From Deltaproteobacteria bacterium (GTDB lineage Bacteria > Desulfobacterota > Binatia > UTPRO1), in contig JAJCZP010000097.1 in the NCBI GenBank assembly GCA_029262315.1, forward strand, positions 1 through 32,084: DNA of 32,084 nt, written 5' to 3'. Below the pieces are notes generated by a model. The model made no database searches. It was given only the letters and a program-made list of their open reading frames with translations, and was not told the DNA's origin. The first letter of the stretch is position 1. Each line of letters opens with the position of its first letter. Both the position numbers and the translations under genes were made by a program. Positions 3,582 to 19,344 of the stretch are shown one piece after another.

Positions 3582-6500
3582 TCAGTTTTCACGACACTTC
3601 AGACCGCCCTTGTTGCTCTGGCAATCGACGATGGCCCCGACACGGTTGATCACCGTCTCGGACGTGAGCACGACGGTGACTGGCGCACCGAACGGTAAGC
3701 TGAGATCGCGGGCTCGTGCCTTGACGTTGAACTTCATTACCCCCGGGTTCTTCCGCAGGGGCTTGAAGATGCCCTTCAGACCGCGGTCAGGGGTGCGGCA
3801 GATGATGCGACGCAGTTTGCCGTCGTTGCTGCCAAAGCCCGTCTCGCAGTCCTCCGCCCGCCAATCGAAGGTCTCGTCCAGGAAGATCCCGTCGTACACC
3901 CGCACGGTGATGCCCACCGAGGCGTTGAAGAAATCGATGATACCGGCTTCCGGATCCCCGGGCGGCACGACGACGACGAAGTCCCCCTTGGCCACGATGC
4001 CGCCGTTCGGCTTCTCGGGGCGCTTGGAAGCCTTGATCTTCAAGCTGAAGACGTTCAGCAGGTCGTCTTCCTCGTCGCAGAAGTCCCCGACGCCATCGTT
4101 GTCGAGATCCCCCTGGTCGGGATCGGCGACCTCGGGACAGACATCGAGCGGACACGTGTTGGCGGGAAATCCCGGATCGCCGAATCCGTCGCCGTCGGTA
4201 TCCGTGCAGGGATCGCACGCATCCCCGATGCCGTCGCCGTCGGTATCGGTCTGCTCCGGATTGGCGTCGTCCGGACAGTTGTCGATCGGCAGGCACACGC
4301 CATCGAGATCGGTGTCGACACACGGAATCGCAACACACGCGCCGTCACAGGTGATCGCATCGGGCGGATCGCACTCCTCGGCACCTTCCACCACACCATC
4401 GCCACAGACGATCGCCCGGCAGAGAGGATTGCAGGTCGTGCCGTTCGGCGGATCGCAGTCCTCAGGCGCGTCGACGAAGCCGTCGCCACACGCGGGCACC
4501 CGCTGACAGTCGGTCTCGCAGATGCCGTTCTCCGGCGGATCGCACTCCTCGCCGGCCTGCACGATGCCGTTACCGCAGACGATCGTGGCGCAGCTGACAT
4601 CACAGGTCGTCCCGTTCGGCGGATCGCAGTCCTCGGGCGGATCGACGAAGCCGTCACCGCACGCCGGGACGCGCTGACACCCGGCATCGCAGGTTGCCGT
4701 GTTCGGGGGCTCGCACTCTTCGCCCGCCTGCACCACACCGTTGCCGCAGATGATCGACACGCAGCTGGCGTCGCAGGTCGTCCCGTTCGGAGGATCACAT
4801 TCTTCGGGCGCATCGAGGAAGCCGTCGCCACACACCTGGATGCGCTGGCAGCCCGCATCGCAATTGGTGGTATTCGGCGGTTCGCATTCCTCGCCCGGCT
4901 GCAGAATCCCATTGCCACACACGATGGACACGCAACTCGCGTCGCACGTGCTGCCATCGGGCGGGTCACATTCTTCGGGCGCATCCACGAATGTGTCTCC
5001 GCACACGGGCAGGCGCTGGCACGTCCCGTCGCAGGTCGCCGTGTTTGGAGGCTCGCACTCCTCACCCGACTGCACGATGCCGTTCCCGCACTCGATCAGG
5101 ACGCAGCTGGCGTCACAGTTGGCCGTGTTCGGGGGCTCGCACTGCTCGGGTGCGTCGATCAGTCCGTCGCCGCAGACGGGGGCGCGCTGACACGTCGCAT
5201 CGCAGACGGCGGTATTGGGTGGCTCACACTCCTCGCCGGGCTCGACGTCACCATTGCCACACGCGATCGCGGTGCAATCCGTGTCGCACGTCGCGCCATC
5301 GGGCGGATCGCAGGTCTCCGCGCCGTCGACGAGGCCATCGCCGCAGATCGCCTCGCGCTGACAGGTCGCATCGCAGACGGCCGTATTGGGCGGCTCGCAT
5401 TCCTCGCCCGGCTGCAGGATGCCGTTGCCACACACGATGGAGACGCAACTCGCGTCACACGTCGTACCATCGGGGGGATCACACTCTTCAGGCGCGTCGA
5501 GAAAGCCGTCACCGCACGCCGGAATCCGCTGACAGTCCGCATCGCAGGTGCTGCCATCCGGCGGGTCGCACTCCTCCCCTACCCCGGCGTCGACGGCGCC
5601 GTTTCCACACAGGATCTCGCAGCTCAGCATCACGTCCGCCGAGATGGTCGTCCCATCGACATCATCGGCGAAGCAGACTGCCGTCATCGTAAACGGCGTC
5701 TCGTCGACACAGGTGATGGTTTTCGTGAAACCACCGAGGACGTCGAGCACGACCTCCTGCCCGTCGACCTCGACCCGATCGATCCCCGCGGGCGTAATCA
5801 GCGGCAAGGTCGTCGAGAGCTGTCCAGGATCGGTGACCGGCGTAAAGGTGCCTCCGGTGGCCGTCGCAATGAACTGGAGGTCGTCGGGATCGGCTGACGA
5901 CCCGACCCCGACGGTGTGGATCACCGTGCCTGCCGTGACGGCGGTCGCGAGCTCGGCCGTACACGAGCCGTCAAGGCAACGGCCCCCCTGGTTCGACTCA
6001 CCGTCGGACAAGAAGAAGACGATGTTCGTGCCGGTCGGAAAGAGGGCAAGCGCCGCGTTCATCTCGACGAGCGCGTCGGAAAAATCGGTGGCACTCCCGA
6101 GATTCGCCTGCGGCACGGCCGTGAAGAGGCCGATCTGACCGCCGCTCGGCGTCGTGAAGTCGGAATCAAGTGAGCCGAGAACTTCGGCCACGTCCGCACC
6201 ATTCAGCCCGTCGCCATCCTGCTGCGGGGGGCTCGTGAAGACCTGCGAAATGCCCCCACTGTTCGGCGCGTTCGGATCGACGTCGGCGGCGGCGGCATCG
6301 CTGGCGAACGCGACCACACCGACGTTGACCAATGCCGGATCACCGATGCTCGCGTGCAGCGCGAGGAGGCCGGCAATCTCACCGTCGAGGGTGTCGCCAG
6401 CTTCGCCGTCACCGTTGAAGTCATCGCCAGCGTCACCGGCCGTGCCGTTGCCGTCGGCATCCACCAACGGGCGGCTGTTCTGAATCATGAAATCGAGATC

Positions 6501-6767
6501 GGTACTTCCGGAGACATCCACCACGTAGAGCAGATTGATCGTCTGCCCCGCGATGGACCCGATGGCACAGCTGCCCTCGAGCGTCGAGCTCCCCGGCGGG
6601 ATCGGGAGCGTCGCATTGTCGGCCGGACTCGCAATGACGATCGAGAGCGACTGCCCCGTCGACGGAATCGTGACGGAGTTGGGGCCTGGACCAAACACCC
6701 CGGAGTAGGCCACGGTGACGCACAGGAGAAGAGCGGCCGCGACCGTCGAGAGGCGCAATCTGGCCAT
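3582..6767 (-). CDS. Secreted vWFA protein with 15 Cys-rich repeats, thrombospondin-3-like repeats and a shared C-terminal domain
   Basis: A 1061-residue exported protein. Residues 1-22 are a signal peptide. A von Willebrand A domain spans about 75-330 with the MIDAS motif D84-x-S86-G-S88 and FFLSDGE later. Then come 15 tandem Cys-rich units of about 29 residues of the CGNG...EECDPP...CD..C type, resembling the DUF4215/Myxococcus Cys-rich repeat. Calcium-binding thrombospondin-3-like Asp repeats (DTDGDGIGDACD, DLDNDGVGDFCD) follow. The last 150 residues are a beta-rich domain homologous to the end of the neighbouring 290-residue protein. Domain content implies a calcium-dependent surface or extracellular adhesin. 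It is the second gene of an operon: the start lies 6 bp after the upstream stop, and its GGAG site overlaps the end of that gene. An intrinsic terminator follows. Confidence 0.88.
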   Translation of the reverse strand: MARLRLSTVAAALLLCVTVAYSGVFGPGPNSVTIPSTGQSLSIVIASPADNATLPIPPGSSTLEGSCAIGSIAGQTINLLYVVDVSGSTDLDFMIQNSRPLVDADGNGTAGDAGDDFNGDGEAGDTLDGEIAGLLALHASIGDPALVNVGVVAFASDAAAADVDPNAPNSGGISQVFTSPPQQDGDGLNGADVAEVLGSLDSDFTTPSGGQIGLFTAVPQANLGSATDFSDALVEMNAALALFPTGTNIVFFLSDGESNQGGRCLDGSCTAELATAVTAGTVIHTVGVGSSADPDDLQFIATATGGTFTPVTDPGQLSTTLPLITPAGIDRVEVDGQEVVLDVLGGFTKTITCVDETPFTMTAVCFADDVDGTTISADVMLSCEILCGNGAVDAGVGEECDPPDGSTCDADCQRIPACGDGFLDAPEECDPPDGTTCDASCVSIVCGNGILQPGEECEPPNTAVCDATCQREAICGDGLVDGAETCDPPDGATCDTDCTAIACGNGDVEPGEECEPPNTAVCDATCQRAPVCGDGLIDAPEQCEPPNTANCDASCVLIECGNGIVQSGEECEPPNTATCDGTCQRLPVCGDTFVDAPEECDPPDGSTCDASCVSIVCGNGILQPGEECEPPNTTNCDAGCQRIQVCGDGFLDAPEECDPPNGTTCDASCVSIICGNGVVQAGEECEPPNTATCDAGCQRVPACGDGFVDPPEDCDPPNGTTCDVSCATIVCGNGIVQAGEECDPPENGICETDCQRVPACGDGFVDAPEDCDPPNGTTCNPLCRAIVCGDGVVEGAEECDPPDAITCDGACVAIPCVDTDLDGVCLPIDNCPDDANPEQTDTDGDGIGDACDPCTDTDGDGFGDPGFPANTCPLDVCPEVADPDQGDLDNDGVGDFCDEEDDLLNVFSLKIKASKRPEKPNGGIVAKGDFVVVVPPGDPEAGIIDFFNASVGITVRVYDGIFLDETFDWRAEDCETGFGSNDGKLRRIICRTPDRGLKGIFKPLRKNPGVMKFNVKARARDLSLPFGAPVTVVLTSETVINRVGAIVDCQSNKGGLKCREN
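4320..5609 (-). repeat. Tandem coding repeat, 15 Cys-rich units in an alternating two-unit pattern
   Basis: Fifteen units of 28-29 codons (about 86 bp) lie inside the vWFA gene, 1290 bp in all. Most alternate between a CGNG type (ending near CQR) and a CGDG type (ending near CVSI), so the higher-order period is about 58 codons. The last two units are both CGDG type. Several pairs are almost identical at both DNA and protein level, which points to recent duplication or gene conversion. Each unit has about four Cys, suggesting two disulfides per unit in an extracellular rod. Confidence 0.85.
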
Positions 6768-10419: not shown

Positions 10420-13400
10420 CTATACACGTAGCAGCACGCTGCGTGTGGGCGCCCCGGTGGCCGCGGCGATGGCCCGGGCATAGATGGCGATCTGCCACCG
10501 GTAGGTCGCAAGGTGCGGCTCGAGATCATAGTCGGTCTTGAAGTCGACGACGGTCCAGGCGTGGTCGTCGTCGGGGTCGCTGAAGGCGAGATCGACCACA
10601 CCCTCGACGAGACCCGCGTCGTCGAGCCGAATCGCAACCGGCACCTCTCGGCGCAGCAACCCCGCACGCGCCGCCGTCGCCGCCCGGCGTAGCAACGGCG
10701 CGCGCAGCGCCCGCACCACGCGCGTAACGGCGGCATCACGCTCCGCCGCGGGCGCACCGAGCAGACGGCCTTGCTGACGCACGACCTGTTCGACACCGGC
10801 CTGGTCCGCGTCGAGATCGACGGCCGCCAGCACCGCGTGCACCAACGAACCGAAACGGGCCCCACGCGGGGCCGCCGCCGTCCAATCCGGGACCTCGTCG
10901 ACGAGCACCTCAGGCACGTCGGGAGCGTCGGCGTGCAGGCTCGCCCATTCGGTCGCGGTCGTCACGTCGACGGTCGGGAGGGACGCCTGCTCTCGCACGC
11001 GCTCCTGCTCCGCACGCCAGGCCGCGTGCGCGCGCACGCCCTCTTCCGAGCGTTCGCCCTTCTCGTCAGCGGCGAGCAGCATCTGTTGGCGCAACCCGAC
11101 GCGCTCCTCGACGTTCAACTCGAGCGCGTGGGGATCCCACCAGACCACCTGGTGCTCCCCACACTCGGGATCGTGCACGCCAGGAGCCACAGCATGCGCG
11201 CTGCCCGGGGCACGCTCCGGGCGCACGGCGACGCTGTCGGATTTGAAGCTCGGGCACCCTGGGGCGCTCACGGCCACCGGTGCGCGCCGGTCCGCCTCCG
11301 ACGGGTAGACCGCCGGATTGAGCGCTCCGAGCCATCCCTCGCGGCGCTCGTCACCGAGCGTTGGCACGACCAGAAGGTCGCGCGCGCGCGTTGCCGCAAC
11401 GTAGAGAATACGCATCGCTTCCTCGCGCTCGCGTTCGTGTTCCTCCGCGCGTCGTTCGAGAAGTTCTGGCGGCGCACACCCGGCAAGTCGCATCGCGCAC
11501 AGATGCCCCTCGGGATCGATGAAGCGCTGCGCCTCGGTCGGGGCCTCCTTGGCCGTAATGTCGGCGAGTACGACGACTGGGAATTCGAGCCCCTTGGCAC
11601 GATGGACCGTCATCAGCCGCACCCCACCCGTCCCCTCCTCGATGATGGGCGCATCACTCGTTCCGCCCTGCGCCGCCCCCTCCCCGAGTTGCTCGACGAA
11701 GCGGCGAAAGGACGTCACGCCACCCCGCTCGGCGCGCCGCGCCAGATCCATCAACCGGGTCACGTTGGCAAGCGCCTGCTCCCCAGTTGGCCAGATCGCC
11801 AAGCCCGCGTGGGCACGGGTCGCCTCCAGCAAGCGGCTGATGGTTGCCGCGATGGGCCGTCGGTTCCGCCCGCGGTGGAGATCGCGCAGGACCGCCAGCG
11901 CCGCGGCGACCTCGGCCAGCGGTGCGGGCGTCTCGTCGGGCGGACGGCGAAACGCGTGAAACGTCCCGCACGCGGCTTGATACGCCAGGAGGGCCCCGTC
12001 ACTGAGCGCGAACAGCGGCCCCCGCAAGGTCGCGAACACCGCCAACTCGTCCTCGGGGCGCTCGATCGCCGTCAAGGCGTTCCGCACCGCCTCGACCTCC
12101 TCGCGGGCGTGAAAGGCGCTCCCGCCAACCAACACATGCGGCAGCTGCCGCGCCTCGAGCGCTCGCACGTAGGGATGCGTGACGTCGTTCCCGAAGGAGC
12201 GGAACCGACGGAACAGCAGACAGACATGTCGGGCCTCGACCGGCACGCGCTCGCCAGGTCGCTCGCGCTCGGTCACCGTCCAGCCGCTCTTCCGCACGAG
12301 CCAGTCGACGAACGCGGCCGTCCCATCGGGCAGCGACTCGTTGATGCGCCAGTCGACGATCTTGCCGTAGTCGCCATACGGCGCCGGCACCGGCAGCGCG
12401 ACCACGGCGGGCTGCGTCTCGATCTCCTCGCGAAACGGCGTCAGCGGTACGTACGTCGCCTGCCCTGCCGAGCCCGTCATGCGCGGCGCCAGTGCCGCGT
12501 TGACGGCCTGCTGGATGTCGGGCACGGCGCGAAAACTCGTCGTGAGATGCTCGACGACGGCACCCGTGCCCACCAAACGTCGCTTGATCGTCTCATAGAG
12601 CGCGACGTCCGCGCGTCGAAAGCGATAGATCGACTGCTTGGGATCGCCGACCAGAAAAAGCTTGCCGGGAATCGGTCGCACGTCGGTCCAATCAGTCGCC
12701 GCCGGGTCGGCAGCGGCAAGCAGCAGCAAAATCTCCGCCTGCAATGGATCGGTATCCTGGAACTCGTCGACGAACAGGTGCGTGAAGCGGGACTGCAGAT
12801 CATGGCGCACGGCCGGATGGGCCAAGAGCAAGTCGCGCGCAAGCAGCAGCAGATCGAGAAAATCGAGACGGCCGGCGCTGACCTTCAGGGACTCGTATCG
12901 CTCGACGACGGGCCAGAGTTCGTCACGCAAGTGTGGTGCGAGGTGGGCACCGGCCGCGTCGGCGAACTCGACGAGCGCGGTATGCAGCGCCTCGCGCCGG
13001 GGACGGACGGGCTGCTTCCACGCCGCGTCCGCCCCGCGCGTGAATCCCGTCCACCGCCAGTGTCGGGCACGCGGCAGCTGAATGAGATCGGCCTCGAGGC
13101 CGTCGTAGTCGCGCGCGCGGACCGCCTCGCGGCGTTCCACTTCATCGACGAAGTGCGCGATCTCGGTGAGCGACTTGGTAAAGTAGTCGTCGGGATTGCG
13201 CCCGGTCGCCTCGGCGGCAAGCGCGGTCATGTCGGCCAGGATCGCGTCGATCGCCGCTGCCCGATCGAAGGTCTCGTGCCGCCACGGTGTTGGGAAATCG
13301 CGCCACCGCGCCAACTCCCACGCGGCGTTCCGCAGCAACGTCCGTGGCCCTCCACGGTCGCGGCTACCGCGCCGTAGCATGCGCCGCAGCCCCTCGCCGG

Positions 13401-13860
13401 GATCGGCCAGTGCGCGCTCGAACCATTGATCGAAAGCGCGCCGGAAGTACTCACCGGAAAGATCCTCGGCCGCGACCTCGAAGAGCGGGTCGACGCCGGC
13501 CTCCACCGGACGTTCGCGCAGGAGGTCGCTGCAAAACGAGTGGATGGTGCCGATGCGCGCTTCCTCGAGTTGCGGCAGCGCCGCCACGAGTCGGCGATGC
13601 TCGACGGAGTCGGGGGCGCTGGCCTCGCGACGACGCTCGATCTCGGTCCGGAGCCTCAGCTTGAGCTCCCCCGCGGCCAGCTCGGTAAAGGTCACCGCGA
13701 CCATGCGATCGAGGGTGGCCACCCCCGCGGTCAGGACCGCGACCATCCGTCCGACGAGCGCCGTGGTCTTGCCGGTTCCCGCGGCGGCCTCGACGACGAG
13801 CGTCGCGTCGAAATCGCCCGCGATCCGCGCGCGAGCGGCGCTGTCCGCAAGCGTCGTCAC
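10420..13860 (-). CDS. addA: AddA-like UvrD-type helicase-nuclease (double-strand break repair)
   Basis: A 1146-residue protein. Residues 26-33 hold the Walker A loop (AAGTGKT), followed by VAVTFTELAAGELKLRLR. Motif II DEFQDTD lies near 363-369, then LVGDPKQSIYRFRRAD, and a C-terminal helicase half with LMTVHRAKGLEFPVVVLAD and YVAATRARDLLVV. The last 100 residues form a RecB-family nuclease: GSLVHAVL, EGVVDLAF, VVDFKTDYD (catalytic D and K), and a Y-R-W-Q motif. With AddB it would process double-strand ends for RecA loading. The start is GTG at 13858-13860, overlapping the addB stop as GTGA, so translation is coupled. The size fits AddA (about 1200 residues) better than RecB. Confidence 0.9.
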   Translation of the reverse strand: MTTLADSAARARIAGDFDATLVVEAAAGTGKTTALVGRMVAVLTAGVATLDRMVAVTFTELAAGELKLRLRTEIERRREASAPDSVEHRRLVAALPQLEEARIGTIHSFCSDLLRERPVEAGVDPLFEVAAEDLSGEYFRRAFDQWFERALADPGEGLRRMLRRGSRDRGGPRTLLRNAAWELARWRDFPTPWRHETFDRAAAIDAILADMTALAAEATGRNPDDYFTKSLTEIAHFVDEVERREAVRARDYDGLEADLIQLPRARHWRWTGFTRGADAAWKQPVRPRREALHTALVEFADAAGAHLAPHLRDELWPVVERYESLKVSAGRLDFLDLLLLARDLLLAHPAVRHDLQSRFTHLFVDEFQDTDPLQAEILLLLAAADPAATDWTDVRPIPGKLFLVGDPKQSIYRFRRADVALYETIKRRLVGTGAVVEHLTTSFRAVPDIQQAVNAALAPRMTGSAGQATYVPLTPFREEIETQPAVVALPVPAPYGDYGKIVDWRINESLPDGTAAFVDWLVRKSGWTVTERERPGERVPVEARHVCLLFRRFRSFGNDVTHPYVRALEARQLPHVLVGGSAFHAREEVEAVRNALTAIERPEDELAVFATLRGPLFALSDGALLAYQAACGTFHAFRRPPDETPAPLAEVAAALAVLRDLHRGRNRRPIAATISRLLEATRAHAGLAIWPTGEQALANVTRLMDLARRAERGGVTSFRRFVEQLGEGAAQGGTSDAPIIEEGTGGVRLMTVHRAKGLEFPVVVLADITAKEAPTEAQRFIDPEGHLCAMRLAGCAPPELLERRAEEHEREREEAMRILYVAATRARDLLVVPTLGDERREGWLGALNPAVYPSEADRRAPVAVSAPGCPSFKSDSVAVRPERAPGSAHAVAPGVHDPECGEHQVVWWDPHALELNVEERVGLRQQMLLAADEKGERSEEGVRAHAAWRAEQERVREQASLPTVDVTTATEWASLHADAPDVPEVLVDEVPDWTAAAPRGARFGSLVHAVLAAVDLDADQAGVEQVVRQQGRLLGAPAAERDAAVTRVVRALRAPLLRRAATAARAGLLRREVPVAIRLDDAGLVEGVVDLAFSDPDDDHAWTVVDFKTDYDLEPHLATYRWQIAIYARAIAAATGAPTRSVLLRV

Positions 13861-16800
13861 GGCATCGCTCGCAAGCGCCGCAACTCGGCCAGCCGCTCGG
13901 CCGGTTTCCGCTTCACCCGGATCTCCTCGTACGGACCACAGACGGATCGGTAGTCGCAGTACCGACAGGCGCGCGGGACCGGCGCCGCGGGAAGAAACCC
14001 GTCGCCGATCGCCCGGCCGACGACGTCGGCAACGACGGCCGCCGCGGCGCGGCTCTCGGCATCGAGGGGGACGACCCGCTCTTCGAATCCCCCCGCGGCC
14101 GCACAGTAGTAGAGTCGCCCCGCCTCCACGGTGTCGGACAGGAGTTGCTCACATGCCAGGGCGTACAGGACGGGCTGGAGAATCTCACCACCACCAACCA
14201 CGATACCGTTCTTGGCGCGGACCTTGCCGGTTTTGTGGTCGGTCGCACGCACCCGACCGTCGTCCTGACGCTCGACGAGATCGATCGACCCCCGGAGGCT
14301 CAGATCGCCGATGACCGTCACGGGCTCGGGTCGACTGGCAGGGTCGGCGTACCCACGTTCACCGAGGGGCAGGCCGAACGACAGCTCGAAGCGATGCGGT
14401 GTCCACTGCGCCGCCCCTTCCGCCTCACGCCGGAGCCATTCACGAAGATCGGCCCGCACACCGTCGATGCCGTCGTCCCACACACGCGGAATCGCTGGCG
14501 CCAACTCGTCGCGATAGCGGGCCTCCACTTCGCGCAGCGCGTCGTCGACGACGTCCAACGCCTGATCGAGCGTGTCGCGCCCCACCGGAAGGCCGTGCTG
14601 TTCCTTGAGCGTCGTCAGGGTCCGGAACTGGACATCGTGAAAGAGCGCGCCGCGCGTGAGCGGATCGATGCTCTCGATCGCCGCGGGCTCCTCGCGCGGC
14701 TTCAACCGCACGATGGCTTGCAGGAAGAAGCGATACGGACAGGCGGCGAAATGCTGAAGTGCGGTCGGCGAATACGAACGCGCGCCGAGCTGGTGCCGTG
14801 CGAGCGCCGCGCGCGCGATCTCATCGGGATCGACGAGCCCGTCGGCGACGTTCCACTTCGGGAACCAGCGCCGCGCCCGCGCCCGCAGCGCGCGGGCGAG
14901 ATGGGGATTGGCGCCCAGCAGATAGTGGGCGGCGCCAACGGTCTCGCTCGGGTCGACATCGAGCAGCGGTCGGAGCAGCGCGAGATCGTACTCCGCGTCG
15001 TCGATCGCCTGCGTCGGCAACTCCGGGGCGGGCCAGCCGACCCGCACGTCGTGTTCCCCGCGGGCACGAGCCGCGATCTCGTCGAAGCCGGGCAAATGCC
15101 CCTCGGCGGCACTCAGGATCTCGAGCGTATAGAACGACGGAACGCGCGGCCGGGCCTGCTCGATGTCGAGCCGCGGATACGACAAGACGACGGATCTGCA
15201 CGCGGCACCGACAGCAAGCCGAAGCGCCAGGCGCTCGGCGGCCACGCGCGTCGCCTGCGTCGCCAGCGTCACCGGCAACACGCGACCACTCTCATGCTGC
15301 GCGCGACGCGGCGTCGCACCGCGCGCGGCCTCCGCCGCCGAGTCCCCGTCGTGCTCACCCCCAGCGCCCTCTCGGCTCCCGTTCAGGCGCTCGCGCGCCG
15401 TATCGAGCAGGATGGGGTCTTCGACGATCTTCCGAGGAAAGAGTCTCTCGGCGAGCCCCGGCACGAACACGACATCGAAGATCAGACCGCGTGCACGGTC
15501 GGCCGGTGCCACCAACACCGCGCCATAGCGGCGACGAGGCGGCGGCACCGTGAGTTCGCGCAGGCGACTCCCGAGCACGAGCTGGACCTCGGCAAGCTCA
15601 ACCGGACCAACCGAGGCCATGGGCTCGAGCTCCGCACACGTGGCCAGGACGTGTTCGGGATTCCGGAGGGTAGCCGCGGCCAGGGCGCGCATATGCCGCA
15701 GCCAGTCACCCCAGACGGCGCGATCGGGCAACGCCGCCAGCTGTTCGATCACCGGAAGGGCGAAGGCCTGCAAGTGGCGCAGGTCGGCGAGGTCGCGTTC
15801 CAACCGCGCGGCACGCGCCTCGTCCTCGGGCGCCAGCTTGTCGCGCTTCCGTTCGAGCTCGTGCCCCAGGCCCGCGAGGCGGCGCGCCCAGCGCTCCTTG
15901 CCACCGATCACCGCGGCGTCGACGAGATGTTGCTCCCAGCGCCACGGCGCGCGCACCGTCCCGTCGAGCACCCCCTGCGCGGCGGGATCGTCGGCGAGCA
16001 CGTCGTCGTCCGCCGGTCCCGCCACGGGCGCGGCCGCGGTGTGCGGCGGCAAGAGCTCATCCTCGGCCGGGACCCACAGCGTATCGAGATCGCCGGCGCG
16101 CTCGCGTTGCTCCTCGGGTGCCGGCACTTGCGCGAGCGAGAGATACTCGCCGAAGCGCCGTGCCGACAAGCCTTCGTCGCGACAGGCCAGCAGCGCCAGC
16201 AACGCACGACCCGATGGGTCGGGCCGCGTCGTTCCACGCGCGAAGAAGGCGGGAATTCCCGCCCGGCGAAGCGCTTCCTCGAGGTGCCCACGATAGTCGG
16301 CCGCCGCGTGCACGAAGACCGCCATGCGATCGAACGGCACGCCGCGCGCGGCCTCGTCGCGGATGCGGCGTGCGATCTCGACGCACTCCCGAGCCTCACC
16401 GGGCCACGAATGGAGGACGACGGAGTCATCGAGCGGTGCGGGCGCCGGGCGTGCCTCCTCGAACAGGTGCGCCTGCAACGTGCCGAGCGAACCTGGCACC
16501 TTGCTGGGCACGGACACGGCGCGCGTCCCGCAAGCCGCCTCCAGGTAGACGAGACTCCGTGCGTCACCCACCGGCACCGTCGCCAACACCGATGGCGCGC
16601 GCGCCACGAGTGCCCGCAGAAAGCCGGCCTCGGCGTCGTTGTCGATGGCGACGTCGAGGAGGAGGAGCGGTAGCCCGACTGGAGATCCCGCGGTCTCCCC
16701 AACGGCCGCGGTTGCAACACTGAGCACGAGCGCGCGATCGGCCACCGCGGCGGCACTCAACTCGTCATCGAGCCCTTGTCCGAGCGCCGCCAGGGCCGGC

Positions 16801-17261
16801 CCCACCGCCGCCAGTGCACCGACGTCCGCGGGCGGCACGCGATCCAGCCGCAACGCCTCCACGGTTCGTGCGACGGCACGTGCGAAGCCCGGACGCGTCG
16901 CCACCGGCGCGAAGTAGCCGAGCGCACCCGCGTCAGCGACCCGCTGCACCGCGCGCGCCGCCACGGCGTCGCGCGTGAGGGCAGTCGCCGGCACCCGATC
17001 GACCGCCGCAAGCGCCGGCGCGGCAAGCAGTCCGCCGAGGCGCCCGAGCGTCACGCGCGTCACCCCGAAGACCGCGCCCACGCTCGCGGTGAGCGCGCGG
17101 GCCAGATCGTCGCAGGCCTCGAGCGTTGGCCCCACCAAGAGCACCTCCGCATCGCGCGGATGGCCCCGCAACCACTCGAGCGCGGCGGCGTGCCGGGCGG
17201 CCGCAGCCGCGCTGGTCACGATGTGCACCTCTGTCCGAGGCGTAGCGCCGCGCGTCCCCAC
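13857..17261 (-). CDS. addB: AddB-like nuclease subunit with 4Fe-4S cysteines
   Basis: An 1134-residue partner of AddA. The N-terminus keeps a helicase-like fold, but the Walker A position reads LLVGPTLEACDDLARAL, so ATPase activity is probably absent; many AddB proteins, unlike this one, retain a Walker A. GLIFDVVFVPGLAERLFPR marks the helicase-2 region. The C-terminus has the PD-(D/E)XK nuclease: GSIDLVE, ATDHKTGK and a Q-P-V-L-Y-A motif. It is framed by four Cys suited to an Fe-S cluster, one in FAACPYRFF near residue 840 and three in CRYCDYRSVC near 1098-1107. The upstream start is GTG at 17261. A second GTG at 17228 (giving MHIVTS) would begin directly at the first beta strand and is equally likely. 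The radical SAM gene ends 68 bp upstream on the same strand. Confidence 0.88.
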   Translation of the reverse strand: MGTRGATPRTEVHIVTSAAAAARHAAALEWLRGHPRDAEVLLVGPTLEACDDLARALTASVGAVFGVTRVTLGRLGGLLAAPALAAVDRVPATALTRDAVAARAVQRVADAGALGYFAPVATRPGFARAVARTVEALRLDRVPPADVGALAAVGPALAALGQGLDDELSAAAVADRALVLSVATAAVGETAGSPVGLPLLLLDVAIDNDAEAGFLRALVARAPSVLATVPVGDARSLVYLEAACGTRAVSVPSKVPGSLGTLQAHLFEEARPAPAPLDDSVVLHSWPGEARECVEIARRIRDEAARGVPFDRMAVFVHAAADYRGHLEEALRRAGIPAFFARGTTRPDPSGRALLALLACRDEGLSARRFGEYLSLAQVPAPEEQRERAGDLDTLWVPAEDELLPPHTAAAPVAGPADDDVLADDPAAQGVLDGTVRAPWRWEQHLVDAAVIGGKERWARRLAGLGHELERKRDKLAPEDEARAARLERDLADLRHLQAFALPVIEQLAALPDRAVWGDWLRHMRALAAATLRNPEHVLATCAELEPMASVGPVELAEVQLVLGSRLRELTVPPPRRRYGAVLVAPADRARGLIFDVVFVPGLAERLFPRKIVEDPILLDTARERLNGSREGAGGEHDGDSAAEAARGATPRRAQHESGRVLPVTLATQATRVAAERLALRLAVGAACRSVVLSYPRLDIEQARPRVPSFYTLEILSAAEGHLPGFDEIAARARGEHDVRVGWPAPELPTQAIDDAEYDLALLRPLLDVDPSETVGAAHYLLGANPHLARALRARARRWFPKWNVADGLVDPDEIARAALARHQLGARSYSPTALQHFAACPYRFFLQAIVRLKPREEPAAIESIDPLTRGALFHDVQFRTLTTLKEQHGLPVGRDTLDQALDVVDDALREVEARYRDELAPAIPRVWDDGIDGVRADLREWLRREAEGAAQWTPHRFELSFGLPLGERGYADPASRPEPVTVIGDLSLRGSIDLVERQDDGRVRATDHKTGKVRAKNGIVVGGGEILQPVLYALACEQLLSDTVEAGRLYYCAAAGGFEERVVPLDAESRAAAAVVADVVGRAIGDGFLPAAPVPRACRYCDYRSVCGPYEEIRVKRKPAERLAELRRLRAMP

Positions 17262-17329: not shown

Positions 17330-18379
17330 TCAGTCGGTGGTCGGTATCACGTCGCCGGTCGACCGCGACGCGGGCGGGGGCTCGACGCGCGGCGCGGGCG
17401 GGAGCTCGGCGCGCGGCGTACGACGCCGCATGAAGTCGCCCAGGATCTCGGCTGTCGGCCCGAGCGCACTGACCGGACTCGCCAACGCGTGTGAGATGGT
17501 CCGCACACAGCCCATCGCACAACCGGCCTCGCACGGCTTGTGCGTATCGGCGCGGCGGAGATCCTCGAGGGTAAGGTCCTCTACCTGGTGCTGGCCGCCA
17601 GGCACCTGACTACAGTACTGCGTCCGTCCGTCGGCGTTGACGTACAGATACTTGAAGCCGCCCGTGCACTTCCACGGACGACTGAAATCGCCGACCAACA
17701 TCTCGGCGGCGTTCTTCCGGAAGAACGCCATGCCAGGGAAGAGCTCGTGACGATCAAGCAACTCCGCGAAGCGCTTGCCCTGCACGCCGATCTTGCCGTC
17801 GGCGTCGTGCAGCAGCGAAAAGCCAAACTCGAAGTCGAACGGCGCCAACAGAGTGCGGAACTCCGCGTACTGGCGCCAGCTTTCCTCCGTGAGTACGGTC
17901 TGGATCTTGACCGGGAACCGCGCGCGGTCGGCCAACATCCGGAGCCGCGGCACGACCGAGCGCAACGACTTCGGAAGACCGGGGGTGGGATCGACCGTAT
18001 CCACGCTCACCTGCATGCAGTCGAGCCCGGCGTCGTTGAAGCCGTCGATCAGTTCCGGCGTCAGCTTGAACGCATTGGTAATGATGCTGACGAGGTTCAC
18101 CCCGCGCCGGGTCTGCTTGGTGTGGCGGACCAGGCGGACGATGTCGGGATGGAGCAACGGCTCGCCGCCCAGCAAATCGAAGGCGCTCGCGCCGAGATCG
18201 GCGAGGGTGTCGACGCGACGGCGCAACACCTCGTACGGCACCATGGGCGCGCCGTGCGTGAACTCGTGGCAATACTCGCACGTGAGGTTGCACTCGTAGG
18301 TCACGACGAGCTGCGCGTGGAGCGGCCGACCATCAAAGATCCGCTTCATGCCCGTCAGGACGAACAACGCCTTACGCAT
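17330..18379 (-). CDS. Radical SAM protein with SPASM-like C-terminal cysteines
   Basis: A 349-residue enzyme. The 4Fe-4S/SAM motif CxxxCxxC is at C30, C34 and C37 (CNLTCEYC), followed by the GGEPLLHPD motif. A C-terminal cysteine set (WKCTGGF, TQYCSQ, KPCEAGCAMGC) would hold one or two auxiliary clusters. Such enzymes often modify peptides or act as twitch/SPASM oxidoreductases. No small precursor peptide gene is obvious nearby, and the last 30 residues are Pro-rich. GGGGAGGG immediately upstream of the ATG supports the chosen start. It may be co-transcribed with addB (68-bp gap) or simply be adjacent. It is divergent from the selenoprotein gene, with 152 bp between them; the target is not known. 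Confidence 0.85.
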   Translation of the reverse strand: MRKALFVLTGMKRIFDGRPLHAQLVVTYECNLTCEYCHEFTHGAPMVPYEVLRRRVDTLADLGASAFDLLGGEPLLHPDIVRLVRHTKQTRRGVNLVSIITNAFKLTPELIDGFNDAGLDCMQVSVDTVDPTPGLPKSLRSVVPRLRMLADRARFPVKIQTVLTEESWRQYAEFRTLLAPFDFEFGFSLLHDADGKIGVQGKRFAELLDRHELFPGMAFFRKNAAEMLVGDFSRPWKCTGGFKYLYVNADGRTQYCSQVPGGQHQVEDLTLEDLRRADTHKPCEAGCAMGCVRTISHALASPVSALGPTAEILGDFMRRRTPRAELPPAPRVEPPPASRSTGDVIPTTD

Positions 18380-18531: not shown

Positions 18532-19344
18532 ATGGGGCCGGCAACGACAGGCGTCTCGTCCACGCGCCGGCGCAACTGGGCCCCCCTCCTCGGACTGATA
18601 CTCGGGAGCGCCGGGGTCGTCCTGTACGCACTGGCCATCTACGGTCTCGGGGCGTACATGCCCACGGTCCGGAACGACGGGATCCCGAGCTGGCTCCTGA
18701 TTGGCGCGGGGACGCTCCTGTCGTTCGTCGGTGTCCGCCGCGCCTTCGCCTCACGCCGCTCCGGAGGGCGGGCGATCGCCGGGATCGCGCTCGGCGCGAA
18801 CCTCATTTTCGGAGCACTGCTGGCGTGGGTTCTCTATGCCATGGCCGACCTGCCTACGATCCGCGGACCGCAGGTCGGAGCGCCGGCGCCGGCCTTCGCA
18901 CTCGAGGACCACACGGGAGGCATGGTACGGCTGGCGGACTTTCGCGGCTCGCCTCTCCTCCTGGTCTTCTACCGTGGCCACTGGTGACCGTTCTGCGCCT
19001 CCGAGCTGCAGGGTCTGCAGCTGAGCATCGCCGAGTTCACCCGCCGAGACTGCGCCATCGTGGGCATCGTGGTCGACCCCACGGAGACGAATGCGCGCTT
19101 CGCGCGTGACCTCGGCCTGTCGTTTCCGCTCCTGAGCGACCCCACGGCCGCGACGATCGACGCCTACGGCTTGCGCCATGCCGGCGGCCACGCCGGGAGC
19201 GACATTGCGCATCCGGCATCGATCCTGATCGACAGCGCCGGTATCGTTCGGTGGCGTGAGGTCTCGAAGTCGGTCAACAAGCGTCCCACACCGGCCATCG
19301 TGCTCGCCGCCCTCGATCGACTGACGCCGACGCACCCCGAGTGA
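18532..19344 (+). CDS. Membrane-anchored peroxiredoxin-like selenoprotein (UGA read as selenocysteine)
   Basis: A 270-residue protein if the in-frame TGA at 18985-18987 is read as selenocysteine (residue 152). Residues 16-38, 52-70 and 81-104 are membrane segments. From 113 on is an AhpC/TSA-type thioredoxin fold: APAPAFALEDHTGG, LLLVFYRGHW-U-PFCASEL, GIVVDPTETNARFARDLGLSFPLLSDP, and HPASILIDSAGIVRWREV. The family motif is GxWCPFC, and TGA stands exactly at the peroxidatic Cys, with resolving-type C155 giving UxxC. The reading frame continues with family homology to 19344 without any shift. A perfect hairpin with GGT loop lies 24 nt after the TGA. The redoxin domain should detoxify peroxides or exchange thiols at the membrane. 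The start ATG has GGGGAG unusually close, so the N-terminus is less sure. A standard gene caller would truncate it at residue 151. Confidence 0.9.
19004..19022 (+). promoter_or_regulatory. Bacterial SECIS hairpin (selenocysteine insertion element)
   Basis: Arms AGCTGCAG (19004-19011) and CTGCAGCT (19015-19022) pair perfectly over 8 bp, closed by the loop GGT (19012-19014). Opening the top pair gives a GGGTC loop. Twenty-four nucleotides separate the TGA (18985-18987) from the loop G. This meets the bacterial SECIS criteria I know: a stem with a G in the first loop positions, about 16-37 nt after UGA. SelB with Sec-tRNA would bind here. The hairpin is inside the coding region, as expected in bacteria. 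Confidence 0.85.

Follow-up and report, generated by a model that had tools for sequence, protein, structure and literature searches.

A TGA-interrupted gene for a membrane-anchored, peroxiredoxin-like UxxC redoxin is a probable selenoprotein gene

Within the window, that is, the whole 32,084-nucleotide stretch of DNA analyzed here, a reading frame on the forward strand (18532-19344) begins with ATG and encounters a TGA at codon 152 (18985-18987), raising the question of whether this triplet ends the gene or is read as selenocysteine (Sec). The original prediction had placed the TGA exactly at the first cysteine of the motif FYRGHW[C]PFC, and this proved correct to the base. Behind it, 118 codons (18988-19341) continue in the same frame up to the terminal stop codon, again a TGA (19342-19344), and a Pfam PF00578 match (E-value 1.9e-31; 109 bits against a gathering threshold of 26) runs straight across the interruption, bearing out the redoxin homology claimed for the downstream part. 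Comparison with a relative (L037) indicated purifying selection past the TGA (dN 0.37, dS 1.10). Read through, the gene would encode a 270-residue, membrane-anchored, peroxiredoxin (Prx)-like redoxin, with Sec152 in the first position of the UxxC motif UPFC and Cys155 (18994-18996) in the second. We consider this reading, a selenoprotein with a membrane anchor, the best explanation of the sequence data, at a probability of about 0.9. That the TGA is instead an ordinary stop, leaving a 151-residue membrane protein and a remainder that is either decayed or separately started, appears highly improbable: a possible GTG start does lie behind the TGA at 19060, but its product would lack the active site, and both the intact AhpC-TSA domain across the TGA and the open frame under purifying selection speak against truncation.

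Two peptide patterns that omit the Sec column (LVFYRGHW and P[FY]C..ELQ) were searched for in approximately 85,000 species genomes, and the best 80 loci were kept. The Sec codon is TGA in 79 of these, which come from several phyla, and TGC in one (L218), a distribution that again argues against an ordinary stop. Among relatives of the same class, the five nearest found (57, 57, 53, 42 and 37% identity) carry TGA at the same codon, and one at 38% identity carries TGC, as do the paralogues L047, L049 and L057. Across 51 aligned sequences, an alignment that the original prediction had proposed as a check, residue 152 is always U or C and residue 155 is always C; the in-frame UGA thus falls where homologues have Cys or Sec, as is expected of a selenoprotein gene. 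The window protein clusters with its class relatives in a quick tree (support 98). These comparisons also bear on a possible assembly error hiding a true TGC or TGT codon. Although the assembly is a draft and TGA is one base away from either, the codon is TGA in independent genomes as well, and SECIS-like hairpins lie behind TGA and not behind Cys codons, so that we assign such an error a very small probability. A UAG-Sec variant, considered on account of apparent internal TAG codons in matches of two genomes (G023 and G043), was rejected, the active-site codons being TGA (L041) and TGC (L042).

The genome that contains the window is a 5.92-Mb draft in 298 contigs, estimated to be 99.96% complete. 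It encodes SelA (541 bits) and SelB (357 bits) in adjacent genes on one contig (C145) and a SelD domain (303 bits) on another (C79), all above their curated cut-offs. The presence of selA, selB and selD is further evidence against an ordinary stop. The original prediction had named these three genes and selC as the machinery to look for in the same genome, and the fourth was not found: searches of the draft with the Rfam tRNA-Sec model, ARAGORN, Rfam on the sel loci, a class-specific covariance model, the pattern CTTCAA..GGTTCRA, a one-mismatch anticodon arm and BLAST with the gene of a relative all failed to return a tRNA-Sec. Those Rfam matches that were checked with ARAGORN were ordinary tRNAs, mostly for Ser and Leu.

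Two alternatives draw on this negative result. It is a point in favor of an ordinary stop, and it would also fit a lineage that decodes the UGA at this site with no canonical selC, relying on a highly divergent tRNA-Sec or some other suppressor, given that selA, selB and selD are present and yet several different searches were negative. Relatives in the class, however, have a normal tRNA-Sec: SelA occurs in 41 of 58 genomes, and tRNA-Sec in 37 of those 41 plus one genome without SelA. The SelA-bearing genomes without a normal tRNA-Sec are, besides the window's own, G007 (74% complete), G046 (880 contigs) and G024. G024 encodes one of the window protein's two closest relatives, and its tRNA-Sec gene breaks off at the end of a contig; G007 and G046 are incomplete or fragmented. 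We therefore regard non-canonical decoding as very unlikely. Because the gene is truncated in this manner in G024, an assembly gap appears to be the likeliest reason for the missing tRNA-Sec in the window's genome.

The truncated gene occupies positions 1-69 of locus L103 (contig C256 of G024), and in G044 and G017, too, tRNA-Sec is close to a contig edge; selC seems to be a site at which the assemblies of these bacteria break. The SelD protein of the window's genome (L030:5874-8132, minus strand, on contig C79) carries an N-terminal pyridine-nucleotide-disulfide oxidoreductase domain, and its SelD active site contains the CxxC motif CGGC; fusions of this type (Ndh-SelD) are already known (PMC2398784).

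With the window protein as query, the same genome yielded further candidate selenoprotein genes. A paralogous membrane-anchored redoxin with the motif FFRGHWUPYC (L002:1492-2241, minus strand, contig C116) has a different hairpin, TCGCCG-AGTTA-CGGCGA, nearer to the TGA, and relatives of this paralogue exist both with TGA and with TGC. At L004:1501-2400 (contig C16, from 7793 onwards), a WUPPC redoxin contains an in-frame TGA followed by the hairpin GCAGCTC-GGT-GAGCTGC and runs on into a DsbD N-terminal-like domain (PF11412), possibly a fusion of a Sec-redoxin with a DsbD-type protein. A third, TGA-containing redoxin-like frame with the motif FYRGFWUPPC (L008:1261-2100, minus strand, contig C213) shows a weak PF00578 match and the hairpin GCTCCG-AGTTG-CGGGGC.

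In bacteria, Sec insertion is directed by a SECIS element, a hairpin close downstream of the UGA with a G in its small apical loop (PMC1088965). Such a hairpin, AGCUGCAG-GGU-CUGCAGCU, was found at 19004-19022 on the forward strand, with its loop at 19012-19014; as originally described, it has a perfect 8-bp stem that starts 16 nt after the TGA, with 24 nt between the TGA and the GGU loop. Judged from the window gene alone, it may be due to chance. Its folding was not significant against shuffled sequences (z -0.53) or against synonymous recoding (p = 0.13, with 13% of recodings reaching the same stem length), because LQ-G-LQ written as CTG CAG ... CTG CAG is palindromic by itself. An Rfam search over the TGA site at E-values up to 1 returned no SECIS family and only a chance match.

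The significance of the hairpin thus comes from the family. In 90 TGA sequences, paralogues included, the mean stem measured 6.87 bp compared to 4.04 bp under synonymous recoding, whereas four Cys homologues reached 4.25 versus 4.14 bp; by this comparison, the hairpin is conserved in TGA sequences beyond what the protein demands, and not so in Cys homologues. The 29 distinct members with LQGLQ pair their Gln and Leu codons as CAA:TTG (22) or CAG:CTG (7) and never mix them; the tree contains three switches between the two states, all compensated, a number too small for a phylogenetic sign test. Where the peptide is LQGLG or LRGLG, other codons make up the stem (CTC CAA GGN CTT GGA and CTC CGA GGN CTC GGA, respectively), and paralogues with QLGEL form CAGCTC-GGT-GAGCTG. 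In all likelihood, these family hairpins are SECIS elements. Along with selA, selB and selD and the Sec/Cys exchange among relatives, this selection on the hairpin supports the central claim of the original prediction, namely that the gene is translated through its UGA. From these lines of evidence, we infer Sec insertion at residue 152: the ribosome, together with SelB and Sec-tRNA, would read the UGA at 18985-18987 as Sec, guided by the hairpin at 19004-19022.

What kind of redox protein would result? An AlphaFold2 model built with 51 sequences (the window protein and its relatives from the species genomes; mean pLDDT 94) has a thioredoxin-type fold behind three helices, and the AhpC-TSA/redoxin domain spans residues 115-241 (18874-19254). 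Foldseek identified AhpE, Bcp4 and other peroxiredoxins as the closest solved structures, with a TM-score normalized to the target of around 0.9 for AhpE. Aligned to AhpE, the protein has Sec152 at the catalytic Thr position and Cys155 at the peroxidatic Cys position. Accordingly, the window protein has UxxC at its active site and lacks the T/S-x-x-C with peroxidatic Cys (or Sec) that strictly defines a peroxiredoxin. No NCBIfam model accepts it: the ResA model scored 50 bits against a cut-off of 170, the SelL-related model NF040769 54.7 against 120 and the thiol peroxidase model PRK09437 56.7 against 140. The name selenocysteine peroxiredoxin given in the original prediction is too specific in its second half. 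Because Sec lies at the Thr position and Cys155 at that of the peroxidatic Cys, the protein is, as far as its sequence can tell, a Prx-like UxxC selenoprotein and not a true peroxiredoxin.

Its function in the cell envelope is most likely that of a thiol-disulfide oxidoreductase, slightly favored over a thiol peroxidase, the two being nearly equally likely. Working mainly as a peroxidase, the protein would reduce peroxide at its Sec/Cys pair and so protect the envelope, Cys155 occupying the peroxidatic Cys site and Sec152 standing in for the catalytic Thr. We hold this to be a serious contender, somewhat short of even odds: 1-Cys AhpE, Bcp4 and PrxQ are the top matches by structure and sequence, and Cys155 aligns with the peroxidatic Cys of AhpE, but the TxxC motif of peroxiredoxins is absent, the PRK09437 score stays far below its cut-off, and WUxxC resembles the thiol-disulfide oxidoreductases ResA and TlpA, whose matches are significant as well, ResA ranking next by sequence. 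In either role, the Sec152 selenolate would act as the nucleophile, on a disulfide or a peroxide, Cys155 would resolve the intermediate as a selenenylsulfide, and a membrane or periplasmic reductant would regenerate the Sec152-Cys155 pair.

The N-terminal part of the protein matches no Pfam family. AlphaFold2 and hydrophobicity indicate three transmembrane helices, comprising residues 17-39 (18580-18648), 51-73 (18682-18750) and 77-103 (18760-18840), the last preceded by the basic loop RAFASRRSGGR, which the positive-inside count assigns to the cytoplasmic side. Averaged over 51 members, Lys and Arg residues number 2.35 in the N-terminal tail and 3.31 in the loop that joins helix 2 to helix 3, versus 1.06 in the first loop and 0.82 after helix 3. 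Because basic residues gather on the tail and the helix 2-3 loop, the redox domain probably lies outside the cytoplasm by the positive-inside rule. The product would accordingly begin with a short basic tail in the cytoplasm, cross the membrane with three helices and end in an outer thioredoxin-fold domain of the AhpC/TSA type with Sec152-x-x-Cys155.

Three hydrophobic segments are shared by 59 of the 78 relatives analyzed, from Verrucomicrobiota, Planctomycetota, Rokubacteria/Methylomirabilota, Acidobacteriota and deltaproteobacterial metagenome-assembled genomes; those without them are more distant and include the Gemmatimonadota members. Tyr32 and Arg47 are conserved within the module, which has no conserved Cys. 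The fusion of the helices to the redoxin domain, originally put forward as perhaps a less described form, is thus no local oddity but extends over at least five phyla, and the openly accessible main texts searched do not mention it. More speculatively, the module might, beyond anchoring, be specialized as an electron path or docking site that delivers membrane reducing power to the outer Sec-Cys pair, which would make these proteins a distinct class of transmembrane selenoenzymes in Verrucomicrobiota, Planctomycetota, Rokubacteria, Acidobacteriota and deltaproteobacterial lineages; we rate this idea as rather unlikely.

Several known systems resemble the window protein in part. It shares the tethering of a redox domain outside the cytoplasm and the W-C/U-x-x-C motif with ResA, TlpA and DsbE; those proteins have one N-terminal anchor, whereas the window protein has three helices. 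SelL-related redox proteins (NF040769) are weakly homologous (54.7 bits, as above), but the SelL motif is UxxU, unlike the single Sec in UxxC found here. With Sec-peroxiredoxin (TxxU) and the AhpE/PrxQ peroxiredoxins it has the fold in common; it differs from them in its membrane anchor and in that its Sec replaces Thr and not the peroxidatic Cys. Prx-like thiol:disulfide oxidoreductase selenoproteins (PF00578, UxxC/UxxU) have been catalogued, among them 'Prx-like 1' (PMC2398784), and Prx-like PF00578 selenoproteins also appear in Table 1 of PMC13188914. The window protein matches Prx-like 1 in its PF00578 domain, in Sec as the first residue of UxxC and in a SECIS-like hairpin directly downstream, and departs from it, as described, in its conserved three-helix N-terminal membrane module. 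A selenoprotein tabulated as 'Redoxin family protein' (PF08534, UxxC; PMC13188914, PMC9312934; examples HEU0032618.1 and MBA3499694.1) likewise combines a redoxin domain with UxxC and, judged by its table entry, may be the same family. Example sequences of the catalogued UxxC families might carry the three-helix N-terminus. UxxC selenoproteins of PF00578/PF08534 are already known, and the part for which we found no mention is the three-helix membrane form.

Apart from synteny among close Rokubacteria, we found no conserved neighbor or operon partner of the gene, and its surroundings are for this reason no help in choosing between functions. The divergent neighbor in the window (17330-18379, minus strand) encodes a radical SAM protein (PF04055), for which no link to the selenoprotein gene was found. 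Further along the minus strand lie adjacent large genes for a UvrD-type helicase/nuclease and a PD-(D/E)XK nuclease (10420-17261), resembling an AddAB recombination pair, and a gene for a 1,061-residue protein (3582-6767) with many CGNGxxxxGEECxPP-type repeats, typical of secreted cysteine-rich repeat proteins.

If the selenoprotein reading is true, an envelope selenoprotein that is widespread in soil and aquatic bacteria is being missed or split by annotation pipelines, and these uncultured phyla would use more selenium at their cell surface than is currently estimated. The hairpins behind LQGLQ, LQGLG, LRGLG and QLGEL differ in sequence and have their loop, GGN or similar, equally far from the UGA, and the family would offer a clean natural data set for the rules of bacterial SECIS elements. 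That Sec is kept over Cys in nearly all relatives suggests a chemistry that Cys would serve poorly.
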